From NCBI GenBank assembly GCA_944326115.1, contig CALVCQ010000014.1, forward strand, positions 1 through 53,070: DNA of 53,070 nucleotides, in the 5' to 3' direction. Numbering within the stretch: position 1 is the stretch's first letter; each line of letters starts with the position of its first letter. The translations under genes and the position numbers were made by a program. This stretch comes from Candidatus Gastranaerophilales bacterium (GTDB lineage: Bacteria; Cyanobacteriota; Vampirovibrionia; Gastranaerophilales; Gastranaerophilaceae). Of this stretch, positions 4,413 to 46,977 are shown piece by piece. Under the pieces are notes generated by a model that saw nothing but the letters and a program-made list of their open reading frames with translations, was not told where the DNA came from and made no database searches.

Positions 4413-6004
4413 TGACAGATATAACTTTATATAATATTCCTGATAAAAATCCGGAAATAAATATCTGGATGGCATTTCCGTCAATGATGTCTTTTGGCAT
4501 GTCGTCATTAGGTTATATGTCTATAGTAAAGACTCTTGATATGAGAGCAGATTACTTTGTTGAAAAAATATTTACAGATACTGTTTCAACAAAACTTATG
4601 CCTGCTGGTGTCGATGTCATGGGTTTTTCTGTTTCTTTTGAAATTGATTTTTTAGGCATTTTCAGTATTTTAGAAAAATATTCAATACCGTTAAAATCTT
4701 GTGACAGAGATGATAATTCCCCTCTTGTTTTTGGAGGCGGACCTGTTTTGACGGCAAATCCCGAGCCTTACAGTGCTTTTTTTGACTTTATTATAATTGG
4801 AGATGCTGAAAAAATTGATTCTGAAATTATAGATGTAATAAAAATCAACAAACATTTACCCAAAAGTGAATTATTAGAAATTTTATCAAAAGTTCAGGGT
4901 ATATATGTTCCTTGTTTTACAAATTATGCCCCTCTAAAAGGTGTAACCGTCAAAAATGGTGCAACTTATACGGTTGAAAAACTAACTTGTTCTTTAAATA
5001 AGTGTATAACTACTCCTGTGCTTGCTGAAAAAAGTTTCTTTTCAAATACTTACGTTATAGAAGTAGTCAGAGGCTGTCCTCAAAGATGCGGATTCTGCAT
5101 TGCTTCATATTTAAATTTGCCGTATCGCTTTTGCAGCTATGATGAAATTATAAAAAGTATTGATACCGGATTGAAATACACAAATAAAATAGCCTTATTG
5201 GGTGCGTTAATTACAGCGCATCCTGATTTTGACAGAATATGTGAGTATATTTTGCAAAAGAAACAGCAGGTGCAGGATCTGGAATTGTCTGTATCTTCTT
5301 TAAGAGCTGACTCAATTTCACCTGTTGTTATAAAAACTCTTGTTGAGTGCGGTCAAAAACATTCAACTATTGCTATTGAAGCAGGTTCAGAAAGATTGAG
5401 AAAACTAATAAATAAAAATTTATCGGAAAAGCAAATATTTGATACAGTTAAAACCGCTTATCAAAATGGACTGAAAGGTCTGAAAATTTATGCAATGATT
5501 GGATTGCCTACAGAAACACAGCAAGATATTGATGAAATGGTTATGCTTGCACAAAGGTTAAAATCTTCTTTTAAAGATTTTGATTTTACTTTTTCTTTTT
5601 CTACATTTGTTCCAAAAGCACACACGCCTTTCCAATTTTGCGAAAGGGAATCTACAAAAATTCTTGAAAAAAAATATGAGTATCTCAAAAAAGAGTTTCA
5701 TAAGCTTGGCATGAAAATAAGAACTTCCAGTGTGAAATGGGATTATTGGCAGGCTCTTTTATCACGTGGAGACAGAAGGCTGGCAGATTATCTTGTCGAT
5801 GTTTATAAGTCAGGAGCAAATCTCGGTGCTTTCAAACAATGTTATAAGAAATTTGTTGATTCAAAAAATCTTCCCTCTTCCGACGATTATGCGCTAAATA
5901 ATCATGACCCGAATGAAATACTGGCATGGGATTTTATCTCTATCACTCCGGATAAGAATTCTTTAATAGCCGAATATAAAAGGCTTTTACCTGATATTAA
6001 GTAA
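4412..6004 (+). CDS. B12-binding-domain radical SAM protein
   Basis: 530 residues. A radical SAM core is marked by CPQRCGFC (C222, C226, C229 ligate the 4Fe-4S cluster), and the N-terminal 150 residues carry the FGGGPVLTANPEP and DFIIIGDAE blocks typical of cobalamin-binding-type N-terminal domains in this superfamily. The C-terminal region (SSVKWDYWQALLSRGDRRLADYLV) resembles the TIGR03960-like group that often accompanies a DUF2344 partner; no such partner is adjacent. The reaction is unknown. I chose the ATG at 4412, which overlaps the stop of the preceding gene; an in-frame TTG lies just before it. About 350 nt without a protein gene follow. Confidence 0.85.
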   Translation: MTDITLYNIPDKNPEINIWMAFPSMMSFGMSSLGYMSIVKTLDMRADYFVEKIFTDTVSTKLMPAGVDVMGFSVSFEIDFLGIFSILEKYSIPLKSCDRDDNSPLVFGGGPVLTANPEPYSAFFDFIIIGDAEKIDSEIIDVIKINKHLPKSELLEILSKVQGIYVPCFTNYAPLKGVTVKNGATYTVEKLTCSLNKCITTPVLAEKSFFSNTYVIEVVRGCPQRCGFCIASYLNLPYRFCSYDEIIKSIDTGLKYTNKIALLGALITAHPDFDRICEYILQKKQQVQDLELSVSSLRADSISPVVIKTLVECGQKHSTIAIEAGSERLRKLINKNLSEKQIFDTVKTAYQNGLKGLKIYAMIGLPTETQQDIDEMVMLAQRLKSSFKDFDFTFSFSTFVPKAHTPFQFCERESTKILEKKYEYLKKEFHKLGMKIRTSSVKWDYWQALLSRGDRRLADYLVDVYKSGANLGAFKQCYKKFVDSKNLPSSDDYALNNHDPNEILAWDFISITPDKNSLIAEYKRLLPDIK

Positions 6005-28479: not shown

Positions 28480-30513
28480 CTACAAATCTTCTTTAGACTT
28501 TTGTTTCTCTTTCAGATTCCGGCGCAATTCAAGTATCCTGTCAAAGTCAGGAGCCAGTGATAATTCAAAGCTGAATCTTGGGTTCCTTCTGTAAACCTCG
28601 TGATTGTTGTGCATTAACGGAATACCCCAGTATAATCTGGCAGAAGCATCAGCAGGAAGTGCAATTCTTATACCGAAACCGCAGCTGACTATATAATCAT
28701 CAGAGTTGTAGCTTCTTGCTCCCGGGCCTTCGCCTTTAAACGGATAAATACCGGCGTGGTCGATAAATAGAACACCTTTTATGTATTTGCCGAGGAAAGT
28801 AACCTTTCTTTTTTCTCCGTTATTTTTGTTTTTCAGCGTAATAGACTGCGGCGCAAGAGGAAAAACAAGCTCTCCGCTTATGATGTAACCGGAACGGCCT
28901 ATTAACAAACCTTCAGAGTAACCCCTGATTGTAGCCAGACCGCCTGCTTGAAACTGGTCTATGTAAGGCATGACATCGGTAGGTGAATATTGGTATGAAG
29001 CTCTGAATTGACCTACGATTCCATGGCTGAAATCATGCAGCCTGATTAAGCTTCCTGTGTATTTAAAATATTTTGAATTGTCATCAAATATAGGAAATGC
29101 GTGGTATACACCCTGATTTAAGTACCAAATGCCTCTTTTGGAATCATATCTTGCGCTTAACGCTGTTTCCGCACTGGCTATTTTGTCTGTGTAAAGGCTG
29201 AAATCACCGAATCTTGTATTTGCCTGCTTGTAGTTGATTGCGGTGTAGCTGGTCAATTCAAAGTTCGGTTTTCTAATAAGCGGGTGTGTATAGTACAAAG
29301 AATATGTGTATGAACGGCTTTTGATATCAAATATTTCATAAGGGCCTTCGCCGATATTTGCAAAGCTGGATGAAAATGTAAACCCGACCCTGCCGTCATA
29401 CTTGTTTACGGGAATATTGTAATCAGCAAAAGGCGTCACGGAGTATCTGCTTACATAGCTGCCTATTGACAATCTGTCACGCTGCCCGAATAAGCTGTCT
29501 GCTGCCAGCATCAGCCCGCCTCTGAGCTCTCCTATAGTTTTTCTTCCGGCATTGTCCATCAATGCCACTACATGGAAAGGATTTTTTTCTTTAGCCTGAA
29601 GGTTTATATCTGTTGTTGCTGTTTCTTTACCCTTTGCAAGGTTTGCTTTTAACTTAATTCTGTCATTATATCGGTTAAATTTTAAAATATCCTGCTCTAA
29701 AAGTGATATTTCAAATAATTCACCCGACTTTGCAGAAATTCTGTTTTTTATATAACTGTCTTTAGTCCATTTGTTGCCTTCAACGGTAATATCGCCTACT
29801 GTACCTTCCACAAGGTTTATTCTTACAATACCGTCTTCTATTGTTTGCGGGGGCAAAAATGCTCTGGCTGTAACATAACCTTTCAGCGCATAAGCGTAGT
29901 TAAAATCATTTACAAGCATCTGTAAATCTTCAAAGGTTACATACTTGCCTATGACACAATCTGTCAGTTCTTGAATCTCTTCGTCCGTAAAAATTTTGGA
30001 GTTTGTAACACCTACTGCCTGTATGTATACAGTATCAGACCTCGCCATTGCTTTTTGTGCTGCTGCTCTGATTGTGGTTGTAGTACCGTCTTTTTCTACT
30101 GTAGAATCCGTTGATTCTTCAGTTTCGGTTTCTTGTTCAATTTCTTTTTCTTTTTTATTCCAGAAGTGTTTTTTTTTATTTTTTTTTAGGTTTTCTTGTT
30201 CCAGCTTTTTTTCTTGAATAATCTTTGATGTTTCTTTGTTGTAAATTTTTTCGCCGGTATCGGGGTTTCCTTCTATAACATCTTCTTTGTGCTCATCTTT
30301 TTTGTCTTTACGCTCCTGAAAATTTTCCAGATCTTCTTTTTCCTGCTCAAGCCTCATTTTTTCTCTTAACATCATCATGTCATGAGAGTTTATAGCACCG
30401 CCATAGCCGCCTATGTTCGCAGGAATATCAGCTGCCGGTACGGAATATGCCGGAAAACAAATACCTGCGCCCAGCATTGCTGTGAGTATGAGTTTGTTTT
30501 TAATCTTTTTCAT
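28480..30513 (-). CDS. TpsB-type outer-membrane transporter (FhaC/ShlB family)
   Basis: 677 residues. Signal peptide (MKKIKNKLILTAML, cleavage near YSVPA), a highly charged Lys/Glu-rich low-complexity region (50-142), two POTRA-type domains (about 155-310, with VEGTVGDITVEGN and LKANLAKGKETATTDI), and a 16-strand barrel (about 311-650) whose L6 loop carries IRGYSEG (R530), the conserved RGY tip of the Omp85/TpsB superfamily. It ends RFSFELSL plus about 22 charged residues beyond the last strand, an extension most members lack. It should secrete its divergent neighbour, the giant TpsA, across the outer membrane. The gene is divergent from tpsA with a 186-nt AT-rich shared upstream region. The ATG has GAGAG upstream. 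Confidence 0.92.
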   Translation of the reverse strand: MKKIKNKLILTAMLGAGICFPAYSVPAADIPANIGGYGGAINSHDMMMLREKMRLEQEKEDLENFQERKDKKDEHKEDVIEGNPDTGEKIYNKETSKIIQEKKLEQENLKKNKKKHFWNKKEKEIEQETETEESTDSTVEKDGTTTTIRAAAQKAMARSDTVYIQAVGVTNSKIFTDEEIQELTDCVIGKYVTFEDLQMLVNDFNYAYALKGYVTARAFLPPQTIEDGIVRINLVEGTVGDITVEGNKWTKDSYIKNRISAKSGELFEISLLEQDILKFNRYNDRIKLKANLAKGKETATTDINLQAKEKNPFHVVALMDNAGRKTIGELRGGLMLAADSLFGQRDRLSIGSYVSRYSVTPFADYNIPVNKYDGRVGFTFSSSFANIGEGPYEIFDIKSRSYTYSLYYTHPLIRKPNFELTSYTAINYKQANTRFGDFSLYTDKIASAETALSARYDSKRGIWYLNQGVYHAFPIFDDNSKYFKYTGSLIRLHDFSHGIVGQFRASYQYSPTDVMPYIDQFQAGGLATIRGYSEGLLIGRSGYIISGELVFPLAPQSITLKNKNNGEKRKVTFLGKYIKGVLFIDHAGIYPFKGEGPGARSYNSDDYIVSCGFGIRIALPADASARLYWGIPLMHNNHEVYRRNPRFSFELSLAPDFDRILELRRNLKEKQKSKEDL

Positions 30514-30699: not shown

Positions 30700-33600
30700 A
30701 TGAATATAAAACGATTGCCGGCATGTCTTAATTATAAAAAATTAATATCTGCAGTATTGTGTGTTTTGTTTTTAGCACAACAAACCATGTTTGTTCCCGT
30801 AATTGCTTCTGAAATCACGGGTGTTGAAGGAACTCCGATAGAAGGCGGCAATCAGCAGTTTGATATTCGTCCGGAATTTAACCACGGTGATACAGGATTC
30901 AGACATTACAACGACTTCAAGCTTGATCAGGGCGATATAGCCAACCTTATTTTTGCTTTAAAAAACGGCGGAGATATTTCAAAGTTTGTAAACCTTGTTG
31001 ATTCACAAATTATAATCAACGGTATTGTAAATTCTGTATTAAATAATGGTGATTTTAATCCCGGCGGGCATGTTATATTTGTTTCTCCAAACGGTATGGT
31101 TGTCGGTGCGTCAGGTGTATTAAATGTCGGCGCTTTGACAGCAATTGCTCCTACCCAGTCATCTTTTGATGCGGTGAAGGAGATTTATACGCCAAACTGG
31201 GAAACTCATCGTGAACCGGCGAGCCCTGTTCTTTCAATTATAAACGGTAATCATATCAATGAAGACGGTACACTTGGCGCTCAGCGTACTGATAATGAGC
31301 AGGTTGATTTTGATATAAACTCTTTAAAACTTGCCGATCAAACAGGCGATGTAACTGTCAACGGCAAGATTTTTGCAAGAGATGGTGTGGAAATTACGGC
31401 AAGACATATCAAAGTTGCACAGGACAAAACTGTTCCAAATTCAGACAAAGCAGCAATCTTTGCCGGCATAAGTAAAGATGAAGCTGATAAAAATATGAAA
31501 ATTGCATCAGCTCAGCAGGCAAAACAGTTATTTAATGCACTTGTTAATAATAATATAGAAAATGGTGCAGGATTTGCCAATGAAAACGGCAAAATAGTTA
31601 TCAAGGCTCAATCAGTAAAAAATCTGACTAATGAAGGCGGTTCAATTACAGAACTTTTGCCGTTACCTGATGAAAGCGGTTCACAGGATGTCCCTCAAGA
31701 TGACCCGCATTACGGTGATTATATAGATCCGGAGGCACTTGAAGCAAATTCATCTTCAGTTGTTATAGAAGATGCTGTTCTTGGCGCACACGACATAGAT
31801 ATATCAGCAACAACAAATATAATTTATAACGGAGAAAAAGGTGCACCGTCTTTAAACTATATTACAAATCCCGATGCTACGGCTATAGGACAGCTTCTTA
31901 CAAACGGATATGTTGAATTTGAAGGAGCAAGAGCAAAAGCAACGGTTACGATAGGTTCAGGGGCGGAGCTTGTTGCTTCGGGTGATGTGTTGTTGAGCTC
32001 TCTTGCTCAGGCTACTACAAATATAAAATCAAAACCTTTAAAAATTACAAAACCAGTTCAAATAGCTGATGTTGCAGAGTTGTTCTATGCTGTCGGAACA
32101 CAAACAGAATCTTCAGTAAATGTTGAATCAGGTGCAAAGATTGTTGCAGGTGAAGATTTTGTTGCAAATGCAACTTCTAAAAATACAAGCTGGGTAAAAA
32201 TTAAAAATCCGACAACAATGCTTGATCAGGCACTTTTACCAAACTGGCAGACAATAGTTGTTAATACAAATACCAGTGCTGTTACAAATGCAATTATTGC
32301 ACAGGGTGCTGATATTACAGCAGCTAATGTTGAAGTTGATGCCGTTAATGTAACAAATGATTTTACTAATATTTCATCTAAAGCCTCATATTATTACAAA
32401 TCTGAGTCTGATTCTAATTCTGATTCTGGTTCTAAGTCTAAGCCTGATTCTAGTTCTGATTCTTTACCATCTCTTGCAATAGCTGCAATCAACAGAACCG
32501 CAGATATTGAAACCAATGCCAAAATAGATACAACCATAAACACAAACTCTCAGGGTACTGTTTCCGTTAATGCGCAGAATGTACATGTGGCATCAACAGT
32601 AGCAAATGCCTCTGTCGGGGAAGCTAAAGATAAAACCTCCCACATTACAGGCATGATACCGTATATGAAGGAGCTGAAAGATGCAACTAAAGCAGTACAG
32701 AAACAAATCAGCGGTATACTCGGCACTTTCATTGCTGATGCAGCACCTAATGCAAGCGGTTCAGTTGTTATAAACAACAGTAATGTTGAAGCAAATGCTT
32801 CTCTCGGTGCTAATGCACAGATTCATGCAGATAATGTAAATGTCAATGCAAATACGGTTGATTTGACTGTTAATAATTCCACCGCAAAAGTCAAAGATGA
32901 AAAAGCAATGGCATACATGCCCGTTCCGGGTGCTGCTGTTATTGTGAATAACCAGCATAATATAACGAATGCGGTAATCGAAGACGGTACTGCTGATAAA
33001 CATGCCAATATAACGGTAAATAACGGCTTGAATGTAAATTCTACTCTTGAGCAGCCTTTGAATGAAAGAACTTTTAAATTCCTTCTTGATATTGCAAGTA
33101 CAGGTACTGATATATATGAAGCAGGCTCGGAAATGGTTGATGCTGCGTCAGGTCCCTTAGATATCACTACACTGAATGATTTTCTTATGACCGGTCAAAC
33201 AGAGTCCGCTGATATATTCTCTAATTTGAAAAATCTTAAAGTCGGCTTTAAATTAAGCGGTGCTACAAGTAATTTGGGATTAAAAGGCTTTTTCAATAAC
33301 TGGGCAGAAAGCAGTTCAGCAAGCAAAAGCGGCGGAATCGGAGTTGCAGGCTCATTTGTAATGAGTGAAGTCATAAATGACACAATTGCAAGAATAGGAG
33401 AAAATACCAATATAGACGGTTCCGGTGATGTAATTGCAAATGCTGCAAATAAAATCGTTCAAAATAACGCAGCCGGTGATGTTACAAAACTCTGGAAATT
33501 ATCAGGTGCATCGGGTGAAGGAAGCGGCCTTGGCGGTAGTGTAATTTATACTCAAAACGAAGTTAATGCAAAAGCACAAATTGCAGATAATGTCACAATA

Positions 33601-36600
33601 AACACTACGGGTGACGTCGGTATTTATTCCGCAAGCGAACAGTCTTATATAAATCTTGCGGATACGGGAGCAGCTACGCAAAATGGACTTTCTTTTGCAG
33701 GAAGTGTTGTACTTCAAGAATTACGCGGCATTACGGAAGCATCAGTAGGTAGTGCAGATATAACAGCAAATAATCTTATAGTTTCTGCAGGTAAAGGTGC
33801 AAGATTTTTGCAGACACAAAAATATTTTGACAGATTAAAAGAAGATCCTTTTGCTTCTAATGATCCGATTTATAATCCGCCTCTGGAAGAGGATGAACTC
33901 GATTTAAGCACACCGGCAATTTATGATATTGTTGATTTAAATCCTGATACAGGTCTTATTGATTTTGATACATCAGAAGATGCGCCTACAACTGTTAATG
34001 ATGGTATTTCAAACATTATGATTACGGGTGCGCTTTCGCAACAGAAAAACAAGGTGTCTGAAAGCAGCACAACAACTTCTTCTTCAGGCATGGCTGTCGG
34101 TGCGTCTGTAGGAGTTTCTGATATTCAGCGTAATGTCCGTGCTTCTATTGCAGACGGTGCACAAATTGCCGTAAACGAATCAGTCAATGTCAATTCCGAA
34201 ACATACACTCAGGGTGTAAATGTTTCTATCGCAGCTGCATTTGCCGGCGGAGTAAGTATTAAAAAAGATAAGGATAAAAATAAAGGTGCTGCAAAAGCTG
34301 ATAATGCTGCAGCAAGTGAATCAATACTTGATAAAGCTTTGACAAAAGCAGATTCCGTTAATACAAAAGTAGAAAGCGGCGCCGCAGCAACTGACTCAAA
34401 AGTTGCAAATGCTTCAGGCAAAGAGCTTAATGACAGACTTAGCAGTACTGCAAAAAATGATTTAAACAAAGCAAGCGGCGAGAGTGACGGACTCGGAAAT
34501 AAAGTTGCTGCTGACGGAAATAAAACACAAACAGGTAATGCAACAACAGCTTCAAAAAACATGTCTGCTGCTCTTGCAGGAACAGTCAATGTACAGATGA
34601 ATGAAAGTGCTGTTGAATCAACTATAGGCAGTGCAAACATTACTGTCGGAAAAGATGTAAATGTTACTGCAAAACAGGATACCGGTGTAATAAATATAGC
34701 AACTGGTGTTGCAAAAGCAGCTACAGTAGGGGCAGGGGCTGCAATTAACCTTAATGATAACAATAATACAACTTCTGCAATAATAGGTAATGACAATTCA
34801 AAAACCAGTATTATCTTTAATAAAGATAATGAGCATAATCTTAATGTTAAAGCGGAAGAATCAAATGACAATATCCATGCCGCAATAGGTGTCGGTGTAA
34901 CACAACAAAAACAGAACGACAATCAGAATTCTGTTTCCATAGGCGGTTCTTTTAATGCCGATGTTTTAGAAAACAAGGTTTCTTCCGTAATAAACAATAC
35001 TGATGTGTCAAAAATAGCAGGTGAAAATGTAGATATTGATGTTGTTGCGGACAATTATTCTTCAGCATACAAAGGAGCCGGCGGGCTTGCTGTTGATGCA
35101 ACATCTTCTTCTCAGGGAACTTCCGTAGGCGCAGGCGTTGCAGGAAACATAAACATAATAAACAAAACAACTACGGCTGCGGTTAAGAACAACTCAAATT
35201 TAAATAATGCAAACTCGGTTGATGTGCTTGCCAATTCAGATAAAACTAAAGCTACAGAAGATTTATTGTCAGTAGGCGCAGGCGGTTCTGTTATTGCCGG
35301 CGGACAAAATTCATTCTCTTTTGTCGGAGCTATAGGTGCAGATGTTATTAATAACAATCTTTCTGCTTCAATAGAAAATTCAACAATATCAGCTCTCGAA
35401 AACATTAATGTATCAGCCTTTAATAATTTAAATAATGACAACATTGCAGGTGCTTTGAGTCTGAATTTTGCAGCAAAAGGCACAAGTGCCGGCATTGGTA
35501 CTGTTGTTAATGTTATAACAACATCCGTTGATTCTGCTGTAAAAAACAGTACAATTACACAGGCAAAAGATGTATCTGTTAATGCTGAGAATAAAGAAAG
35601 CCTTGATTTTCTGGCAGTGAACCTTGGAGCGTCAAAGGCTGCTACTGATGTTCTTGTGAATGCTATAGTTAATGTTTTAAATAGCACAATTAATTCTTCA
35701 ATAGCAGATTCTTCCGTAACAAACAGCGGAAATACTTCGGTAATTGCAGGCTATGATTCTTCAATAAGAGGTATGACAGATGTTCTCGGTCTGGCGCTGG
35801 GTCAGGGTAATGCTCTAGGCGGCAATGCCGTAATAAATGTTATGGACTCAACTGTTTCCGCACAATTAAAAGGTGACGGCAAAAACGGAGAAAAGAAAAT
35901 TGCATCAGCCGGCGAGGTAAATGTCAAAGCCAATTCAAACCAGAATATAGATATAGTACCTGTCGGTGTTTCTATTTCAACAGGCGGGACTGCTGCTGTT
36001 GCAGCAAATGTCGGGGTTAATGTAATAAGCAATACAACTTCTGCAAAAGTTGAAAACGCTAATTTAGACTCCGGTTCGTTGAATGTTGAAGCAATAGACA
36101 CAACCACCTCAAAAAGCCGAGGCGGCACATTGGCTGTTTCCGGTAAAACATCCGGAGTAGGCGGTTCTGTACTTGTCGAGGTTCTTGACAAAGATGTTGA
36201 TGCATCTGTTAAAGATTCAGCGGTAAACACCGGTGATTTAACTGTAAATGCTCTTGCTGAAAACATTTTCGGGCCAAAAGAAACAACATCTATTACCGCT
36301 GATGCAATTGTAAACGCTATGGGCAGTGGTTCATTGTCTGAAGCCGGTGTTGATGACAGTGATGATAAAACAAGACTTGCCGACTGGCAGATGACTTATG
36401 ACCTGGCTGGCGGAGCAAAAGCAGGTGTCAGCGGCTCTTTAATAGCAAAAGTTTCTCAAAATCAAGTGAATGCTGCTATCACCGGCTCTGATATTACGGC
36501 GCAGGATGTAACAGTAAAAGCTGAAAACGGTATCTATACAAGAAATATCGTCGGTAACATCACAGCAGGCGGCAATGCTGCTGTCGGCGGCTCAATATTT

Positions 36601-39600
36601 GTTAATGTAAATACCGGAAACACCGATGCAAGAATTGAAGACTCTGTGATTGCATCTGACGGCGATGTTCTTGTTCAGGCTGATTCACTTCAGGACTTCA
36701 AAACCATTATGGTCGTAGGCGGTGCAGGCGGTACTGCTGCGGTTAATGGTTCAGTAAACTCCAATACCGCAAAAGATACTACAACTGCCTTGATTAAAAA
36801 TTCAGATGTAACTAAATCAAAAAGCGTTACAGTTCAGGCAAAAGCAAAAGACGATGTTGAAAGTATAAACCTTGCTGCGCAGGGTGCAGGCACTGCCTCT
36901 GTCGGCGGTATAGTTTATAACAACAATTACCTGAACACTGTAAATGCCGGTATTGAAGGCAAGAAATCCTCAGGTATTGCATCAGGAGGCAAAGTCAAGG
37001 TTGATGCAAAATCTTCAGAAAGCTTTTCTGCAAATGTTGCAATGATTGGTGCAGGCGGCACAGCTTCCGTTAACGGTGTTGCAATTGTTAATGTAATAAA
37101 TTCAAATATAAATTCTTATATTAACAATTCTGATGTGAATGCTCGCAGCATAGATGTATTTGCAAATCACAACTTTAATAAAGAAAAATACGGTGACAAG
37201 ACTAACGTTTTCACCGAATTTATGGACACAAAAGGCACAAATGCTTCCTCAGATGATGAATCCATAGCAGTGGAAGATAAAAGCGTTGACTCTGACGATT
37301 TGGCAGGAGAATTGCTTCCGACTGTTATTGTCCTCGGCGTTTCTGCTGCAGGAACTGCTGCAATAAGCGCCAATACAATAGTTGATACAATAAACGCACA
37401 GACAATTGCTTCTGTATCAGGTTCTGAAATAGCAACAGTTGACGGTTTGAACATACAGGCAACAGCTGATGAAGTATTGTATAATGCGCTGGCCGGTGTT
37501 GCTGCATCAGGCACTGTTTCAGCCGGTGCTACGGTTAATACAAATGTCCTTTCAAATACAACAAAAGCTAAACTTGCTGATTCAACAGTAAATACAGGTG
37601 ACGTAAGTGTTAATGCCGTACAAAATACAAACCTTAATACAGTCCTCTTTATGGCTTCCGGAGCCGGTTCAGGGGCAAGTGTGAACGGCGTTGTCGGCGT
37701 GAACACAATATCTAATAATACAATTGCAACAATCAATAACTCAAAAATTCTTTTGGCAGAAAACACTAAAGTTTCAGCAGAAACAAATGTTCAGGCTAAT
37801 TCTATAGGGGTTGCCGGCGGCGGAGTAGGTGTAGGCGCTTCTGTAAACGGTCTGACCCTTACGAATGTTTCAACAGGCAGTACCTTAGCTTCAATAGAGA
37901 ACAACAGTGTAATTGAACAGGGTGCAGCAAATGTCAGTTCATCTGCTGACACAACAATGTATAACCTTATAGTCGGCGGAAGTGTAGCAGGAACAGGCGG
38001 CTCCGTGGGCGTTTATGCTCCGGTTAACGTCTTAAATAACAATGTAAACGCTTATATTTCAGGTTCTAAACTAAACAATAATACTACAGGTAGCAAAGTA
38101 AGTGCTGATTCTGATGCTACACTAAAAACCCTTGTTGCTGTAGCCGGTGTTGCCGGTATAGGCGGCTCTGTAGGCGCTTCAGCTTTAGTAAATGTTATAG
38201 ACAATGATGTTCTTGCTTATGTACTTAACAGCACTATAACAGGCGGAGATTTTGCAATAAATGCTGAACAGAATTCTTCTCTTGACGGACTTGTTGCTGC
38301 TGTTCAAGCAGGCGGTATTGCAGCTGCAGCCACAGTTAATGTTGTTACAAATACATTAAATGACAGAGTAAAAGCTTATGCTGATAATCTTATTTCTACG
38401 GCAAATCTTGATATAGACGCTGTATCAACAGAAAGAATTGCCTATGATATGGCTGCATTAAGCGGTTCAGGTGTCGGTGTAACAGGTGCTGCTATAGTTA
38501 ATGTTATAAGCAATCAGCTTGAAGCTTATATAACAAACAGTGAACTTAAAGGCGGCTCTGCTGATATTGATACAAATCAAACGATTACACTTGATAATGC
38601 AATAATCGGCGGTTCAATAGGTGCGGTTGCAGTAGGCGGAGGAACTATTGTAAATACAGTTTCCAATGGAAACTCAGCATATGTAAAAGATACATATGCT
38701 GAGATATCTTCTGTAAGTGTAAATGCACAAACTACAGAAAATATTACAAGTGATAATATAATGGCATCTGTCAGCGGAACTGCAAGCGGTGCTGTAAGCG
38801 CTCTTGTAAACGTTCTTGAGGGTACAACACAGGCTTATATTGATGCCGGTTCAAACAACATTACCTCATCAGGTGCTGTTACTATCGAGGCAAAAGATAC
38901 CTTGACTCTTAACAACTTGTCAGGCTCTGCTGCTGCGTCTGTAACAGGTTCAGGTGCTGCATCAGTCAATGTAAATGTTATTAATAATGCTGTAAAAGCA
39001 GAACTTTTAAGCGCAAACGACGCAAAAATCACGGCCGGGTCAGTTGATGTAACGGCTATATCCAATATGACAAATAATGTTACAACCAGCTCTCTTGCAG
39101 GCGGTCTTACAGCCGGTGTAGCAGGAACAGTGTCTGTTACTTCTATCGGTGACAGATTCTCAGAATCTTCAACGGTTTCATCAGCCAATGCAGACGATTC
39201 CGTCAAGGAAGCTCAAAACACGGCAAATGCTGCAGGCAGCGGTTTGAAACTTGTTCAAAATGATGACGGTTCTATAACGGTCGCTGATGCAAATTCTACA
39301 GGTGCTGATTACAAAAATTACGAAACACCGGAGGTATCACTTACAAAAGGCACAGCCACTGCAAAAGAGGGTACGGTAGCTAATATTTCTGCAAATGTTG
39401 AAACAACAGGCGGTGATATAAACGTTAAAGCAGAAAATAAAGTTAATAATACCGTAAAAAATGCCACGGCTTCAGTGGGTGCAATCGGTGCCGGTGCGTC
39501 AGTAATGGTAACAGACACAAATTACAACACCTCCGCACAAATTACCGATGGCAATATAAAATCTGCAAAAAATATAAACGTTAATGCAAAAAGTGATATA

Positions 39601-42600
39601 AAAGCAACTACAGAAGCCACAAGCGCTTCTGCCGGTGCCGTATCAATCGGCGGTAATGTTGCTTACTTTAGCAACAACGCAATTACAGAGGCAATAATCG
39701 GTTCTGATAACACAGCAGGCATGACTGTTAATGCAAAAGACGTAAATATTACTGCTGAGTCCGTTGATAATATATCATCTAAAGCAATAGGCGGTTCTGC
39801 CGGTCTGGTGAGCGTTTATGCAGTAATTGCGCTTGCAGATGCTAATAATGAGATTAATGCAGCTGTTTTGGGCGACAATCTTAATCTGAAGGCAGACAAT
39901 CTTTCTGTAAAATCTATAAATACAAGTGATTTGACTTCTGAAATGGCAGCCGGCGGCGCATCACAGTATGGTGCGATTGCTCTTGTGAATGAAGCAAGTT
40001 CAAATGCAGTTTCTAATGCTATTATCAATGCGACAGGCAATATTGCATTGAACAATGATTTGAATGTTGTAACAGAAACAGGTCACATAAATACTACAGC
40101 AAAAGTTGCACTCGGTTCTATTGCTGTGATAGGCGGCAATGCAATTGAACAAAAAGCAGAGTCTGCGTCTGTATTTAATTCAAAAATAAATTCGGAAACA
40201 CAAAAGGGATTAAAAATCTCTTCCAAAAACGCTAATGTAAAAGCAGGCTTGAAAAAAGATACAAATGAAGCAGGCGACATAAATGCAAAAGTAGAGGCTG
40301 TTTCAGCAGGTATCACTCTTATTGGCGGTACTGCTACAATTATGAAAGCTGATGCTGCTGCAAATACCAATGTTGTTGTAGAAAATGCTGATATTAACGC
40401 AAATGAAAGTATATCACTAAAATCTGCTTTAGATAGAGAAGCCTCGTCTTCTTCAGAAGCATTGTCAATAGGCGGTATAACTATCGGAGTTACGACTATT
40501 CAAACAATTGCAGACGGTGATTCTGTAATAGATGCATCTTCCGGCATATTGAGCGCGGATAATGTCAATATTTCATTATCAGATACAGCTTCAACAAACG
40601 CACAGTCAGTAAGAGGTTCAATATCTCTGGCAGACGGCAGCGGAATAAAAACCGAGTCCAGTATTCAGACAGATGCAAATATAAAAACAGGCTCTATGAA
40701 TGCAAATAACATAGATGTTGTGTTAAATAATACTAAAACTGCCAAGGTTTCTGATTCAGCAACATCAGGCGGTGTTGTAATTGTCGGAGCAAGTGATATT
40801 GATACAAAAACGGCTGGAAATTCCGGTGTTGAAACATCCGGTACCATAAAAGGGTATGGAGATAACAAATCTGCCCAAAACTTTAATATAACAATTACGG
40901 ACAACTCAGAAGCCGAAAATGAAGTTTCAAACGCTAATTATGGAGTACTCGGTGTAGGTACGGTGACTATTGACAGCAATGTATCTTCTACGATTGATAA
41001 TCTTATTGCAGGTGACATACACTCAAATAATATAAGTATTCAAAGCAACCTTAACAGAACCTCGACAGCGAACGGCACAGGCAGCGCCGCAGGGCTTTCA
41101 GGTATTTCTGTAATAAATATGAACAGTACAATAGGTCAAGACAGCACTACAGCAAACGGTGCAACTACCACTATAACTGCGGCTATTGCTGATGCTGCCG
41201 GTACTGTGGATATAGATTCTAATGCTACAAACACTGCAAAAACATACGTTGCAGATTCAACAGCAGGCTTGATTGCTATTGCTCACGGAACTGCCAACAA
41301 CAATCTTAATTCTGTAAATACTTTAAATATTCAAAATGCGGACATTGATATAGACGGAACATTTGATGTTTCTGCAAAAAATACAAATAATATTGCAATG
41401 ACAAAACGTTCTTCCGGCGGCGGGTTTATCGCTGTTAAAGGCGGAGAATTAAAAAATAATATTAATTCTAATGCACAGATTAATATAAAGAACTCAAATA
41501 TAAATGCCGGAAATATGAATATTGCATCAAAAACAGAATTCGGCTCAGTCGGTACTGTTCAGTACGATGACAGCGACGGCGGCTTTATTACAGAATCAGG
41601 TGCAAAAATAAATAACACTATAAATCAAAAAAATAACGTAACAATTGATAATTCTATACTTACTGCAGAAGGTGATTTGACTGTATCACAACAGTCAGAT
41701 TCAGACTTCCATCAGGCAATAAAAGCGTCTGCTTCCGGATTTTTAACATATAAAAGGGCAGAGTCTGTCTTGAATGTTATAAATGAAAACGTGATGAATA
41801 TTACGGAAGGAACAGAAATTTCAGCAAACGATGTATTTATAGAATTAGATTCAAACAATAATTTGTCCTCAAAAACGGATGTTAGTGCAAGTCACTTTGC
41901 AGGTTATCCAAAATCTCATGCATATTTGACTCTGTCAAATAAAAACCATATGACAAATAACGGTACTATTACATCAAGCGGCAGTACAAATATTGCCTTC
42001 CTTAAAGATTCTAAAAATACCCTGACACAGGATGCATATCTGCACGCTCAGGCATCTGTTGCTGTCGGTTCGGCAGAGGGTAGTCTTACTTATAATACCG
42101 ATAACAAACTTGATATCGGCGAAAAAGGAATTATTGCATCTGACAAAGATGTAATAATAAACTTTGATAACGGAACAAATAGTTTTAATGCAAGAACCAA
42201 GTCTGTTAAAGTATCAAGATTGTTATTTGGTATACCTATTACCGATACTGATGAGAGAAGTAATATAACTAAAAATTACCAAAATGCAATGAAATTGGAT
42301 GGCGAAGTTTCAGCCGGTATCGGTTCACAAAAATACATGCAGATAGACAAAGACGGAAATATTGTTAAAGATTCATTAAAAGGCTTTAGTGATAAAGATT
42401 ATAAACAGGAACAGGCAGGAAATAAAACTTCTGCCGAAGTTACACAAGATGCAATTGACTCTATAAATGTTCAGAAGGATTATATAGAATCCCATATTAC
42501 CGCTCTCGAGGAAGATAAGGCAGCAAATCAGGAAAAAATTGAGTATTATCAAGCTCAAATTGCTGAACTTCAAGAAATTATAAAGAAATATGAAAATGCT

Positions 42601-45600
42601 GCAAAAATTTCAGAAAGCGAAGTTAACGCATCTATAGAAAACAATATAAAAAACAACCTTGTATCTGCAGCAGGCCAGGGACAAGACAATTCCTCCGTTC
42701 CGGATAGTGCATATGATACAATAAAGAATCAGCAGAATAATAATATTGCTAACGCAGAAAAAACATATAATGATATTTTGAATGATCCGAATAAAACTCA
42801 GGCAGAAAAAGATCAGGCTTATATTGATTATCAAAATGCCCTCAACAGTGCTTTAGAAAATGCTCTAAATGAATATAAGTATGAATATGAATACACATAT
42901 ACTGTAACTGATGATAAAGGCAATACAGAAACAAAAACAGAAACAAGAGAAACAGCGTTAAGTCAACAGCAAAAAGATAATATTCTTGCATTGGTTGACA
43001 AAGTACAGGAGAACTATACCTTTGATTCAAACGGTATGGCAATGTATAACGGTAAAATTGTAGAAAATGATTCTTATAATACAGCTATATCTAATGTAGA
43101 AAACCAAATAACGGATTTGAAAACCCAACAAGAAGTTTACTCGAAGGCAAATGAGCAAATCGCTGAAAAAGCATCTGCTTTGAGCGAACAAATGTCTGAT
43201 TTAGATGAACAAATAGCTCATTTAGAAGATAATCCGCTTGACGGAATGGAAATATCAAATGCGTATATTGAGTTTGATGATATTATTACCCAAACACCGA
43301 AAATAGAAATCACGGGTATCACAAAAGATAACCTGACAGGTGATGGCGAGTTTAAAATTTATCTCCCGGGATTGACTATAGACAATTATTCCAACAGTGA
43401 TTTGATTTTCAATGTTGTTAATCTTGCTGCTAGAGAAAACGGCGGATTAACAATAGGCGGAGTAAGCTTTGATTCTTATCTTGATACCGGTAAACCAATT
43501 GCTGACAATGTTCTGTATGTAACAGAAAGAAATAATGATGCGATAAAAGATAATACAATTACAATAAATAATTATTTTGACCATAACAATCCGCTAAATG
43601 CAGGTAAAAATCCGTCTGATATTATTTTTAATAATATAGTTTCAACATCTGACTTAATCGATATCTGGAATGAAAGCGGAGATATAACCTTCAAAAATGT
43701 GCTTACTTCTGACAGAAAGAGTATAATCGCAACTCAGGGCAATATTGTATATGACAATCAAAATACTGAATTTGCTCTTAATAAGGCTGATGACAGAGTT
43801 ATTGCAGGACAAAATATTACAATTAATGCCAAAAATATTAAAAACAACGGTACAATTAAGGCAGGTCGTGATGTCAGAAATATCACCATCACAGATGATA
43901 TGCTCAATAACCTTGTCTATGACCCGACAACAGGCAAGACAAATCTTATTAGCTTAGGCGGCAGTGACAAGTCTGCTTATCTCAATGACAACGGCAATAA
44001 CATAAAAGCTATCTACGAAGACGGTAAAATTAAATTGTTTGTTACCTCTCAAGACGGCGGCAATGTTGACTTAAACGGTACTGTCACAGGCAGCGGAACC
44101 GTATCTTATACTAACGGTTACAGCGAAGTTAAAGTTACCAATAATACTGATAAAACACTTGTTATAAACGATTTTAATAACAACAAAATGAACGGAACAC
44201 TGGATAACGCAGGTACTCTGACAGTAAATAAACAGGGCAAAGATTCTGCTGTTACTACAATAGTTTCCAATGGAAAAATAGAAACAGCAGGTGTTATCCA
44301 AAACGGCAAGGACGCTTTAAACAATCCGTCCAATAACAGCGTGCTTACTTTGCAGTCAGAAAACGGTGTTTTAATTAACGCACTTAATGACGGGCTTGGA
44401 AACAGAATAAATACTATTGATTCTGTCGGCTTGTTAAATGTTGTAAACAATAATGCTTCATCTGTAACAATTGACGGTACTGTTCAAAATACAGGTGATA
44501 TTAAGATACAAAATTCCGGTGCAGACGGCATTGTTATAACCAAAAATGGTGTTGTCAACAACAATGACGGAAATATAGAACTTGTAAACAACGGTAATGA
44601 AGGTATAGCCGTTTCAGGCACTGTGTATAATGCAAACGGTTCAATAAAACTTGACAACCAGAATACTCAGGCAGGAATACTTCTTGACAGCACAGGCTTT
44701 GTTCACAATGATAAAGGCGGAGATATAACCATCCAAAATACAGGCGCAAACGGTACTGTTATTCAGGGTATTGTTCAGGCAATAGTTGATAAAATTAATT
44801 TAATAAACTCTGATTCAGATATCCTCATAGGTGACGATACAACTAATGACAAATATCTGAACGCTTTAAATAATGATATAAATATAACAATAACAAACGG
44901 TGATTTATTGAACTCCGGCGTTGATAAAACGTTAATAGCTGCCGGTAAAGATTTAAATATCAGCGTTACAGACGGTGATATAGGAACAACCGACAATGCT
45001 CTTGCCGGTAAAGACCCTGGATTTGGCATAAATGCTTCAACAAGGGATAAAACTGAATCAATAAATATCAACGTAAAAGGTAAAATCACTGCAAAAGCTG
45101 AAAATAATACAAAAACGGATGACAGACTCATCAACCTTACAGCAAAAGATTCTGATATGAAACTTAATCAGATAAAGGCTGAGGGAAATGTCATTCTTAC
45201 GGCTGCCGAATGGGATACGGAAGACAGAAATCCAACACCCGGAGAATATGATTCGGAAAACTATTTTACCGGATATTCAATTATTAATGCTGCAGATGAC
45301 AAAACACAGCCGAATATTGTCGGCAAGAACATATCTCTAATTTCTAGCAATGATATAGGTTCATCGGATAATTACGTAACCTATGAACAAACAGGTACGG
45401 ACAATGATTACTTTAGCGCAGAGGCAGAAAATGACCTCTATGTACAAGGTATGGGTGATAAATCCAATATCTGGCAGCTGATATCAAAAAGAGGTAATAT
45501 TGCTTTATCATTCGACGGCGATTCCGTAATAAGAGAACTTACAAGCGGAAAAGATATTCAGATAGTAAGCAAAGGTAAAAATCTCACTATTTATGATATA

Positions 45601-46977
45601 GGCAGAGTAAGCCATATTCTTGATCCTATGGATGACATTCTCTATCCTCACGACAGAATCGAACTTTCATCTGTTGTCCCTGAAACTGTTAATATCGCAG
45701 TTTTAGATACCAAGGGCGGAGAGGATGCTTATTCAACATTAAATATATATAATGCATTTGTTAAAGGTACAAATGATGATAAAGCAGACGTTACATTAAA
45801 AGCGGATAAAATAATTGCTCATGCGGCAGAAGCAGCAGACTCGGTTATTTCAAACGCTGCAAGACCAAATGGCTTTGATGCAAGTGAGGGCAGAGATTAT
45901 CACGATGATTTGAGTGATGATACATCTGAAATCCTTTTTGCAACCGGATTTAATACGTCAGGTGACGGTGCTCAGCTTACTTTTGATGTAGGCGGGGTAT
46001 CACCGGAGCTTGTTGCTGCAGTGAATGAAGATATTAACGGCAGAGGCTACAACAGTCAGGAGGTAATTGAACCTGTATATATCTTTAACAATGAATACGG
46101 ATTTAAAGATACTGTATATAAAGCAAACGATGTTACTTTGTCATTGAATTCATCTTCCGAATCACCTGCAGATAACAGAGGTATGTATTTTGACAAACTG
46201 TATACAGACAATGCATATATTGATACAAAAGATTTGAATCTCAATTTAAAAGATGCTTTTGTTACTAATTATGCTGAGTTCAGAAACGGTAATTTGGGAG
46301 CATCGCCGGGAGGACATATTATTGGTGGAGATTACAGATGGCTCACAATTGTAGACAACGATTATCAACGAAATCTTTCATCAATATACGGAATTAATTT
46401 AACTTCACAGCTTTATACAAAGCTTACCGGTTCATTTGGCTTGCATATGGGTGATTCAATAAGCCAGCTGACAAAAGCACCTGTTGTTTATTACAATCCG
46501 TATGTTGTTGTTAATATTCCGCAGACGGAAAACAGCTTCTACAGATTGACTTACAAAGATGACAAAATCCAAAAAACTACAACAACACCGGAATTTGAAG
46601 ACATAAACAAAGATACATATAAACCGACTAAGCGCCAAAATATCAGATTCTCACTGGGCAAAGACGATAAAGAGGTGCAAATATCAAACAGACGTATTAT
46701 AAGCATTATAGATATTTCAAAAGGCGGTCTTGCTGTAGAACATGACGGTTCTTTGAAAAAAGGTGAAGAATTTGTTATCAACTTAAGTTATCATAATGTA
46801 ACAGCTTCTCCCGAAGTACGGGTAGTACGTGTATCCGGCAACAAAGCAGGATTGCAGTTTATAAATCTTGACAATGCTACAGCAAATAAAATTCTTTATA
46901 TAAACCTGTCCGCATCTCAAGAAAATACTGATATAAATTCATCAAATAAAGCGACAATGATTATTGAAAAATTGTAA
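30700..46977 (+). CDS. Giant two-partner-secretion exoprotein (TpsA-like adhesin) with C-terminal PilZ domain
   Basis: 5425 residues, one open frame. Extended signal peptide (cleavage near residue 36, VIAS), then a TPS secretion domain (about 55-240) with FNPGGHVIFVSPNGMVVGASGVLNVGAL split by the family's conserved Asn/Gly turns. A Ser/Asp-rich stretch lies at about 568-590. From about 600 to 3300 there are dozens of related Gly/Ala/Asn/Val segments of the type VNV..N...A.I..S, expected to stack as a beta helix. Residues about 3897-4173 are charged coiled coil, then more beta-helix sequence. The C-terminus (about 5300-5405) is a PilZ domain with R5312-x3-R5316 and D5338-x-S5340-x2-G5343. I saw no cysteine in the mature part. 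The ribosome binding site is a weak GAGAAG. No stalling or cleavage site was recognised. Confidence 0.93.
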   Translation: MNIKRLPACLNYKKLISAVLCVLFLAQQTMFVPVIASEITGVEGTPIEGGNQQFDIRPEFNHGDTGFRHYNDFKLDQGDIANLIFALKNGGDISKFVNLVDSQIIINGIVNSVLNNGDFNPGGHVIFVSPNGMVVGASGVLNVGALTAIAPTQSSFDAVKEIYTPNWETHREPASPVLSIINGNHINEDGTLGAQRTDNEQVDFDINSLKLADQTGDVTVNGKIFARDGVEITARHIKVAQDKTVPNSDKAAIFAGISKDEADKNMKIASAQQAKQLFNALVNNNIENGAGFANENGKIVIKAQSVKNLTNEGGSITELLPLPDESGSQDVPQDDPHYGDYIDPEALEANSSSVVIEDAVLGAHDIDISATTNIIYNGEKGAPSLNYITNPDATAIGQLLTNGYVEFEGARAKATVTIGSGAELVASGDVLLSSLAQATTNIKSKPLKITKPVQIADVAELFYAVGTQTESSVNVESGAKIVAGEDFVANATSKNTSWVKIKNPTTMLDQALLPNWQTIVVNTNTSAVTNAIIAQGADITAANVEVDAVNVTNDFTNISSKASYYYKSESDSNSDSGSKSKPDSSSDSLPSLAIAAINRTADIETNAKIDTTINTNSQGTVSVNAQNVHVASTVANASVGEAKDKTSHITGMIPYMKELKDATKAVQKQISGILGTFIADAAPNASGSVVINNSNVEANASLGANAQIHADNVNVNANTVDLTVNNSTAKVKDEKAMAYMPVPGAAVIVNNQHNITNAVIEDGTADKHANITVNNGLNVNSTLEQPLNERTFKFLLDIASTGTDIYEAGSEMVDAASGPLDITTLNDFLMTGQTESADIFSNLKNLKVGFKLSGATSNLGLKGFFNNWAESSSASKSGGIGVAGSFVMSEVINDTIARIGENTNIDGSGDVIANAANKIVQNNAAGDVTKLWKLSGASGEGSGLGGSVIYTQNEVNAKAQIADNVTINTTGDVGIYSASEQSYINLADTGAATQNGLSFAGSVVLQELRGITEASVGSADITANNLIVSAGKGARFLQTQKYFDRLKEDPFASNDPIYNPPLEEDELDLSTPAIYDIVDLNPDTGLIDFDTSEDAPTTVNDGISNIMITGALSQQKNKVSESSTTTSSSGMAVGASVGVSDIQRNVRASIADGAQIAVNESVNVNSETYTQGVNVSIAAAFAGGVSIKKDKDKNKGAAKADNAAASESILDKALTKADSVNTKVESGAAATDSKVANASGKELNDRLSSTAKNDLNKASGESDGLGNKVAADGNKTQTGNATTASKNMSAALAGTVNVQMNESAVESTIGSANITVGKDVNVTAKQDTGVINIATGVAKAATVGAGAAINLNDNNNTTSAIIGNDNSKTSIIFNKDNEHNLNVKAEESNDNIHAAIGVGVTQQKQNDNQNSVSIGGSFNADVLENKVSSVINNTDVSKIAGENVDIDVVADNYSSAYKGAGGLAVDATSSSQGTSVGAGVAGNINIINKTTTAAVKNNSNLNNANSVDVLANSDKTKATEDLLSVGAGGSVIAGGQNSFSFVGAIGADVINNNLSASIENSTISALENINVSAFNNLNNDNIAGALSLNFAAKGTSAGIGTVVNVITTSVDSAVKNSTITQAKDVSVNAENKESLDFLAVNLGASKAATDVLVNAIVNVLNSTINSSIADSSVTNSGNTSVIAGYDSSIRGMTDVLGLALGQGNALGGNAVINVMDSTVSAQLKGDGKNGEKKIASAGEVNVKANSNQNIDIVPVGVSISTGGTAAVAANVGVNVISNTTSAKVENANLDSGSLNVEAIDTTTSKSRGGTLAVSGKTSGVGGSVLVEVLDKDVDASVKDSAVNTGDLTVNALAENIFGPKETTSITADAIVNAMGSGSLSEAGVDDSDDKTRLADWQMTYDLAGGAKAGVSGSLIAKVSQNQVNAAITGSDITAQDVTVKAENGIYTRNIVGNITAGGNAAVGGSIFVNVNTGNTDARIEDSVIASDGDVLVQADSLQDFKTIMVVGGAGGTAAVNGSVNSNTAKDTTTALIKNSDVTKSKSVTVQAKAKDDVESINLAAQGAGTASVGGIVYNNNYLNTVNAGIEGKKSSGIASGGKVKVDAKSSESFSANVAMIGAGGTASVNGVAIVNVINSNINSYINNSDVNARSIDVFANHNFNKEKYGDKTNVFTEFMDTKGTNASSDDESIAVEDKSVDSDDLAGELLPTVIVLGVSAAGTAAISANTIVDTINAQTIASVSGSEIATVDGLNIQATADEVLYNALAGVAASGTVSAGATVNTNVLSNTTKAKLADSTVNTGDVSVNAVQNTNLNTVLFMASGAGSGASVNGVVGVNTISNNTIATINNSKILLAENTKVSAETNVQANSIGVAGGGVGVGASVNGLTLTNVSTGSTLASIENNSVIEQGAANVSSSADTTMYNLIVGGSVAGTGGSVGVYAPVNVLNNNVNAYISGSKLNNNTTGSKVSADSDATLKTLVAVAGVAGIGGSVGASALVNVIDNDVLAYVLNSTITGGDFAINAEQNSSLDGLVAAVQAGGIAAAATVNVVTNTLNDRVKAYADNLISTANLDIDAVSTERIAYDMAALSGSGVGVTGAAIVNVISNQLEAYITNSELKGGSADIDTNQTITLDNAIIGGSIGAVAVGGGTIVNTVSNGNSAYVKDTYAEISSVSVNAQTTENITSDNIMASVSGTASGAVSALVNVLEGTTQAYIDAGSNNITSSGAVTIEAKDTLTLNNLSGSAAASVTGSGAASVNVNVINNAVKAELLSANDAKITAGSVDVTAISNMTNNVTTSSLAGGLTAGVAGTVSVTSIGDRFSESSTVSSANADDSVKEAQNTANAAGSGLKLVQNDDGSITVADANSTGADYKNYETPEVSLTKGTATAKEGTVANISANVETTGGDINVKAENKVNNTVKNATASVGAIGAGASVMVTDTNYNTSAQITDGNIKSAKNINVNAKSDIKATTEATSASAGAVSIGGNVAYFSNNAITEAIIGSDNTAGMTVNAKDVNITAESVDNISSKAIGGSAGLVSVYAVIALADANNEINAAVLGDNLNLKADNLSVKSINTSDLTSEMAAGGASQYGAIALVNEASSNAVSNAIINATGNIALNNDLNVVTETGHINTTAKVALGSIAVIGGNAIEQKAESASVFNSKINSETQKGLKISSKNANVKAGLKKDTNEAGDINAKVEAVSAGITLIGGTATIMKADAAANTNVVVENADINANESISLKSALDREASSSSEALSIGGITIGVTTIQTIADGDSVIDASSGILSADNVNISLSDTASTNAQSVRGSISLADGSGIKTESSIQTDANIKTGSMNANNIDVVLNNTKTAKVSDSATSGGVVIVGASDIDTKTAGNSGVETSGTIKGYGDNKSAQNFNITITDNSEAENEVSNANYGVLGVGTVTIDSNVSSTIDNLIAGDIHSNNISIQSNLNRTSTANGTGSAAGLSGISVINMNSTIGQDSTTANGATTTITAAIADAAGTVDIDSNATNTAKTYVADSTAGLIAIAHGTANNNLNSVNTLNIQNADIDIDGTFDVSAKNTNNIAMTKRSSGGGFIAVKGGELKNNINSNAQINIKNSNINAGNMNIASKTEFGSVGTVQYDDSDGGFITESGAKINNTINQKNNVTIDNSILTAEGDLTVSQQSDSDFHQAIKASASGFLTYKRAESVLNVINENVMNITEGTEISANDVFIELDSNNNLSSKTDVSASHFAGYPKSHAYLTLSNKNHMTNNGTITSSGSTNIAFLKDSKNTLTQDAYLHAQASVAVGSAEGSLTYNTDNKLDIGEKGIIASDKDVIINFDNGTNSFNARTKSVKVSRLLFGIPITDTDERSNITKNYQNAMKLDGEVSAGIGSQKYMQIDKDGNIVKDSLKGFSDKDYKQEQAGNKTSAEVTQDAIDSINVQKDYIESHITALEEDKAANQEKIEYYQAQIAELQEIIKKYENAAKISESEVNASIENNIKNNLVSAAGQGQDNSSVPDSAYDTIKNQQNNNIANAEKTYNDILNDPNKTQAEKDQAYIDYQNALNSALENALNEYKYEYEYTYTVTDDKGNTETKTETRETALSQQQKDNILALVDKVQENYTFDSNGMAMYNGKIVENDSYNTAISNVENQITDLKTQQEVYSKANEQIAEKASALSEQMSDLDEQIAHLEDNPLDGMEISNAYIEFDDIITQTPKIEITGITKDNLTGDGEFKIYLPGLTIDNYSNSDLIFNVVNLAARENGGLTIGGVSFDSYLDTGKPIADNVLYVTERNNDAIKDNTITINNYFDHNNPLNAGKNPSDIIFNNIVSTSDLIDIWNESGDITFKNVLTSDRKSIIATQGNIVYDNQNTEFALNKADDRVIAGQNITINAKNIKNNGTIKAGRDVRNITITDDMLNNLVYDPTTGKTNLISLGGSDKSAYLNDNGNNIKAIYEDGKIKLFVTSQDGGNVDLNGTVTGSGTVSYTNGYSEVKVTNNTDKTLVINDFNNNKMNGTLDNAGTLTVNKQGKDSAVTTIVSNGKIETAGVIQNGKDALNNPSNNSVLTLQSENGVLINALNDGLGNRINTIDSVGLLNVVNNNASSVTIDGTVQNTGDIKIQNSGADGIVITKNGVVNNNDGNIELVNNGNEGIAVSGTVYNANGSIKLDNQNTQAGILLDSTGFVHNDKGGDITIQNTGANGTVIQGIVQAIVDKINLINSDSDILIGDDTTNDKYLNALNNDINITITNGDLLNSGVDKTLIAAGKDLNISVTDGDIGTTDNALAGKDPGFGINASTRDKTESININVKGKITAKAENNTKTDDRLINLTAKDSDMKLNQIKAEGNVILTAAEWDTEDRNPTPGEYDSENYFTGYSIINAADDKTQPNIVGKNISLISSNDIGSSDNYVTYEQTGTDNDYFSAEAENDLYVQGMGDKSNIWQLISKRGNIALSFDGDSVIRELTSGKDIQIVSKGKNLTIYDIGRVSHILDPMDDILYPHDRIELSSVVPETVNIAVLDTKGGEDAYSTLNIYNAFVKGTNDDKADVTLKADKIIAHAAEAADSVISNAARPNGFDASEGRDYHDDLSDDTSEILFATGFNTSGDGAQLTFDVGGVSPELVAAVNEDINGRGYNSQEVIEPVYIFNNEYGFKDTVYKANDVTLSLNSSSESPADNRGMYFDKLYTDNAYIDTKDLNLNLKDAFVTNYAEFRNGNLGASPGGHIIGGDYRWLTIVDNDYQRNLSSIYGINLTSQLYTKLTGSFGLHMGDSISQLTKAPVVYYNPYVVVNIPQTENSFYRLTYKDDKIQKTTTTPEFEDINKDTYKPTKRQNIRFSLGKDDKEVQISNRRIISIIDISKGGLAVEHDGSLKKGEEFVINLSYHNVTASPEVRVVRVSGNKAGLQFINLDNATANKILYINLSASQENTDINSSNKATMIIEKL

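Follow-up and report, generated by a model that had tools for sequence, protein, structure and literature searches.

Cyclic di-GMP (c-di-GMP) is regarded as a messenger of the cytosol, and the known routes by which it controls adhesin release are relays such as LapD/LapG. The PilZ receptors YcgR, PP4397 and Alg44 are cytoplasmic. Among the exoproteins of two-partner secretion (TPS; TpsA, with an outer-membrane partner TpsB), the adhesins HMW1 and HxuA are retained by a small globular C-terminal domain in the periplasm, closed by a disulfide (PMC5422565). CdrA is freed by LapG under the control of c-di-GMP (PMC5422565, PMC8472254), and two TpsA proteins, CdrA and ExlA, are released less when c-di-GMP is high, an effect exerted by indirect routes (PMC8472254). 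Here we describe a giant TpsA-type adhesin of 5425 residues (30700–46977, + strand) that ends in a PilZ domain. It is encoded in a stretch of 53,070 nucleotides (referred to as the window) from a Candidatus Gastranaerophilales bacterium (GenBank assembly GCA_944326115.1, contig CALVCQ010000014.1, positions 1–53,070). A sequence-only reading of the window had noticed this end and proposed that c-di-GMP might arrest or permit release of the adhesin from within the cell, adding that no TpsA with such an end was known to it. The open-licence literature likewise yielded none: searches for TPS together with PilZ, for periplasmic PilZ and for PilZ in Melainabacteria returned no such protein. We find that the PilZ end is real, canonical and conserved across a bacterial family, and that it is most likely exported.

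Results

PilZ domain at the end of the adhesin

The last 207 residues of the adhesin were matched by the PilZ profile PF07238 (E 5.6e-9, 36.7 bits, curated cut-off 22.5). When AlphaFold2 was run on a 62-row alignment of tails, a PilZ barrel followed by a C-terminal helix was obtained, with a mean predicted local distance difference test (pLDDT) score of 76 and values of 81–97 for most of the barrel; an earlier model of the last 330 residues (mean pLDDT 48.6, poor beyond the PilZ part) was not used. In a fold search (Foldseek, VIA-align), the top PDB matches were c-di-GMP-bound PilZ domains. The best was YcgR (5y6g; Z 13.8, root-mean-square deviation 2.1, 106 residues), and PP4397 (3kyf, Z 12.1) and Alg44 (4rt1, Z 11.8) were further matches; non-PilZ folds (ATPase subunits) appeared only below Z 6. 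A sequence-profile search of the PDB with the tail gave no match.

Taken together, Pfam, AlphaFold2 and the fold search place the domain at residues 5305–5412 (46612–46935, + strand). Within it, the RxxxR motif (RQNIR; R5312 and R5316) occupies 46633–46647 and the [DN]xSxxG motif (DISKGG; D5338–G5343) 46711–46728. The conserved end of the domain seen in the tail alignment, AGxxF...ATANKILY (residues 5383–5400), lies at 46846–46899 and opens with AGLQF at 46846. All three elements had been read correctly from the sequence beforehand, and the PilZ identity assigned to them was borne out by the profile and the predicted structure. With a profile score above the cut-off, both motifs and the barrel fold, the adhesin by these criteria ends in a canonical PilZ domain with a c-di-GMP-type motif, from which ligand binding is predicted. 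When the whole of its own genome was searched for PilZ, two places were found: the adhesin end and a 214-residue protein of cytosolic type, which weakly matched the YcgR N-terminal family.

The adhesin gene is one continuous frame from signal peptide and TPS domain to the PilZ end, as had been described, with no internal stop. A signal peptide is read at residues 1–37 (30700–30810), with the cut placed by eye between FVPVIAS and EITG; the N-termini of relatives are alike. The secretion domain that follows (30859–31425) matched NCBIfam NF012204 (adhes_FxxPxG, LktA-type) in two stretches with 118.5 bits, the cut-off being 60. The divergent neighbouring gene (28480–30513, − strand), absent from the sequence-only reading, encodes the outer-membrane partner TpsB, of 677 residues (ShlB, E 1.5e-23; POTRA_2, E 6.7e-17). 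Having a signal peptide (by reading), a TPS domain and a TpsB partner gene, the adhesin is classed as a two-partner-secretion exoprotein, with predicted passage through TpsB.

Conservation of the motif

Loss of RxxxR in homologues would have spoken against the domain's assignment; instead, both R5312 and R5316 were Arg in 129 of 130 distinct tails, S5340 and G5343 were present in all 130, and position 5338 was Asp or Asn in 129, the tails having been gathered by a C-terminal signature that partly excluded badly decayed ones (handled separately). The motifs were retained in tails down to about 25% identity. RxxxR was lost in four PilZ-like tails (L044, L068, L069 and L186, the last from the own genome of the window). 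By Pfam, L044 scored above the cut-off, L068 and L069 below it, and L186 gave no PilZ match; for the latter three, the PilZ shape is judged from their resemblance to the tail profile and from reading. These four suggest that the PilZ fold is independent of the RxxxR arginines, and conservation elsewhere therefore points to a bound ligand. The pattern is that of a motif under selection.

The same four tails still end giant adhesins, as they might if the role of PilZ were purely structural, that of an end cap or anchor, with a pocket that is a relic or has no relevant ligand. Against this stands the near-universal presence of both arginines, which also extends to the small exported proteins described below. 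A relic would have decayed, and we therefore regard this explanation as improbable.

Distribution of PilZ-tailed adhesins

Among 192 genomes from the order, relatives of the tail were found in 123, mostly as the ends of adhesins of 1,000–6,400 residues, so that the combination of TPS and PilZ domains looked for in other Gastranaerophilales does recur. The carriers form two groups. The first comprises giants of about 4,750–6,440 residues with a divergent TpsB-like gene adjoining, and the second adhesins of about 950–3,000 residues, often at a conserved site behind RimO-like and flippase-like genes (names given by reading) and sometimes in tandem rows of 2–4 genes. Such rows occur at L059 (G072:C16), L060 (G051:C20) and L075 (G040:C5); in L075, one adhesin ends in PilZ and two lack such an end. 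A stalk that is DX or PG-rich (DT/DS/PG) precedes PilZ in 40 of the 62 adhesins of 1–3 thousand residues. The contigs of L083, L085, L051 (11172–11825) and L058 (9913–10626) stop within long DT/DS/DA repeats before PilZ, and many such adhesin genes are therefore probably cut in assemblies. The own genome of the window also encodes a further giant adhesin, accompanied by a TpsB of its own and apparently split over two contigs (L066, G000:C12; L186, G000:C38), the C38 piece ending in the PilZ-like tail that lacks RxxxR.

GTDB contigs were also scanned with two patterns, neither of which contained RxxxR or DxSxxG. This gave 80 loci from several studies, nearly all labelled Gastranaerophilales, and RxxxR and [DN]xSxxG were present in all 80. 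The complete frames among them start like the adhesin family; a few frames are broken upstream. Two tail-bearing loci from records of other names, L157 (Fusobacterium sp. CAG:439) and L180 (Muribaculaceae bacterium), are probably Gastranaerophilales sequence that was named or binned wrongly. When 146 genomes of the class were searched with a profile, tails were found in the window's own family alone. An order-wide search gave weak matches in three genomes of other families, and the one inspected (L086, G007) was a small open reading frame (ORF), not an adhesin. POTRA_2 proteins of TpsB type were found in 20 of 20 genomes tested, the weaker matches possibly being BamA-like and one adhesin-free genome having a weak match only.

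Could the motif be a matter of chance, or the fusion an assembly join of an adhesin with a PilZ gene? Three genomes (G133, G174 and G049) do carry the tail on a short ORF of its own. The hidden Markov model and fold matches speak against chance, and the recurrence of the fusion in many metagenome-assembled genomes of different studies speaks against a join, as does the single frame of the window's gene, which shows no frameshift. This explanation is so improbable that it was rejected. In the detached state, seen at L187 (8421–9685), L188 (2171–2896) and L189 (2665–3684), the tail is a short ORF without a preceding adhesin; that of L187 adjoins a C-terminal fragment of TpsB, as if the middle had been deleted or lost in assembly.

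Predicted location of the PilZ end

No membrane-spanning hydrophobic stretch or stop-transfer segment was seen in the last 700 residues of the PilZ adhesins examined (Kyte–Doolittle maximum about 1). Cysteine made up 8 of 10,125 residues (0.08%) in non-redundant tails and 41 of 2,500 (1.64%) in cytosolic PilZ of the same order (C-terminal 125 residues, 20 proteins), roughly 20-fold more; the value for the other ORFs of the window was 1.67%, and none of the 5,388 residues of the mature adhesin is a cysteine. A disulfide hook was rejected on this count, together with the fact that 71 of 80 relatives lack cysteine in their last 400 residues.

In seven distinct small proteins (about 150–220 residues, counted from the first Met), a signal peptide occurs together with a PilZ domain of the same type whose RxxxR is intact. 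These are the exported-type proteins of L026, L142, L150, L161, L184, L193 and L061, with the ORFs at L190 4661–5341, L051 5298–5993, L142 961–1614, L161 953–1609, L150 5978–6628, L193 and L061. Six are assigned to a single genus (g7); that of L150 is the seventh protein. Six of the genes are immediate neighbours of a PilZ adhesin gene, and the one of L184/L190 is about 3 kb off. When a tree was built from 96 PilZ domains (midpoint root, weak resolution within the tail half, two of the small proteins also in the tail set), tails and small proteins fell together and were split from 20 cytosolic PilZ domains with a branch support of 100/100. The lack of a membrane segment, the depletion of cysteine, the relatives with signal peptides and the shared half of the tree strongly suggest that the PilZ end of the adhesin leaves the cytoplasm.

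These results bear on the proposal that the PilZ end stays or waits inside the cell. As the last part to pass through SecYEG, it would bind c-di-GMP in the cytosol, fold, and arrest or delay export, so that cytosolic c-di-GMP would set release. The strongly conserved canonical motif and the C-terminal position of PilZ are consistent with such an arrest. GGDEF proteins are encoded in all 192 genomes sampled, and the lowered release of CdrA and ExlA at high c-di-GMP, if indirect, points the same way (PMC8472254). LapG (PF06035) was found in none of eight genomes, including the own genome (a metagenome-assembled genome, 96% complete), while the control genome, Caulobacter, was matched. On the evidence of these eight genomes, LapG-type control of the adhesin was rejected, and control without LapD/LapG is conceivable. 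Three results argue against arrest: no membrane segment lies near the adhesin end, cysteine is depleted in the tails in the manner of exported proteins, and the small relatives, which carry signal peptides, lack a long chain whose export could be arrested. Arrest in the cytoplasm is possible, though unlikely, and is no longer favoured over an exported PilZ. Of the idea of a one-protein counterpart to LapD/LapG, what stands is the canonical PilZ end with its conserved motif, the GGDEF proteins of all genomes sampled and the lack of a LapG match in the eight genomes tested; direct cytosolic control is the part that is not favoured.

The evidence for export would also serve if the whole adhesin, including PilZ, were displayed or released, with PilZ binding free c-di-GMP, another ligand or a small exported PilZ at the surface or in the matrix. 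The small exported PilZ genes beside adhesins would fit, as would the report that extracellular c-di-GMP affects biofilms of C. jejuni, another gut organism (PMC9608569). In the searches made, however, small exported PilZ proteins were not found in most genomes with PilZ adhesins, and a terminal domain behind a stalk sits at the usual place of an anchor. We consider display or release rather doubtful.

Discussion

The explanation that we tentatively favour is retention of the adhesin at TpsB by its exported PilZ end. This end would pass through the inner membrane as part of the whole chain and, once folded, form a C-terminal knob that holds the adhesin at the TpsB pore. Outside the cytoplasm, the conserved RxxxR/[DN]xSxxG pocket would bind c-di-GMP or a nucleotide resembling it; that the ligand is of c-di-GMP type is inferred from the motif. 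Occupancy of the pocket may stabilise the knob, and hence retention, or change its surface contacts. The barrel would thereby take over the job of the disulfide-locked loop of HMW1, HxuA and CdrA, in an adhesin that has no cysteine from which to build one. Retention, ligand and switch are thus putative parts of the mechanism.

Several points weigh against retention by an exported knob. A PilZ end is missing from some adhesins of this type: among 91 distinct full adhesins, a set biased towards tail carriers, the tail was intact in 78, decayed in 3 and lacking in 10. The tail is therefore dispensable for some members. The linker before PilZ in the window's giant is not a low-complexity stalk. 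Cysteine depletion is a general mark of exported proteins and does not tell the periplasm from the surface, and signal peptides and membrane segments were assessed by hydropathy and reading rather than with a trained predictor. Finally, c-di-GMP is normally cytosolic (PMC8472254), and the putative ligand would need a route to an exported domain; no outside source was recognised here. No exported GGDEF protein was seen among the three of seven GGDEF proteins of the own genome that were readable, which is a weak test.

More broadly, it may be that a clade of PilZ has moved outside the cytoplasm, where it would occur both at the ends of adhesins and in small exported proteins. Its members would be receptors for c-di-GMP or another dinucleotide in the periplasm or beyond, and would set the retention of giant adhesins without LapD/LapG; we hold this possibility with some reserve. 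What makes the case of wider concern is that a family of gut bacteria carries a classic receptor domain, its ligand motif intact, on exported-type adhesins and small exported-type proteins. Either c-di-GMP (or a look-alike) acts outside the cytosol, or it gates the last step of export directly. If the former is true, c-di-GMP would be read beyond the cytosol by its own classic receptor domain.

Comparison with known systems

The LktA-type filamentous family NF012204 resembles the adhesin in its N-terminal secretion domain and repetitive filament. To our knowledge, a PilZ C-terminus has not been described for that family, and the members compared here are all from this order. YcgR, PP4397 and Alg44 (PDB 5y6g, 3kyf, 4rt0/4rt1) share the fold and the c-di-GMP motif; unlike these cytoplasmic proteins, the PilZ domain here ends an adhesin of exported type. 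ExlA/ExlB (PMC8472254) is alike in that a TpsA is kept at the membrane at high c-di-GMP, but the C-terminal domain of ExlA has no characterised homologue and its control is described as indirect, whereas the adhesin has a PilZ end. The anchors of HMW1 and HxuA (PMC5422565) are likewise small globular TpsA ends, the part proposed here as a lock in TpsB; theirs is a disulfide loop, and that of the adhesin a PilZ barrel. CdrA/CdrB with LapG/LapD of Pseudomonas aeruginosa (PMC8472254, PMC5422565) also joins a TpsA, a C-terminal domain that decides retention and a link to c-di-GMP. In CdrA, a cysteine hook is cut by LapG under LapD, whereas here the adhesin lacks cysteine, LapG was not found, and a receptor domain of c-di-GMP type lies within the adhesin itself.

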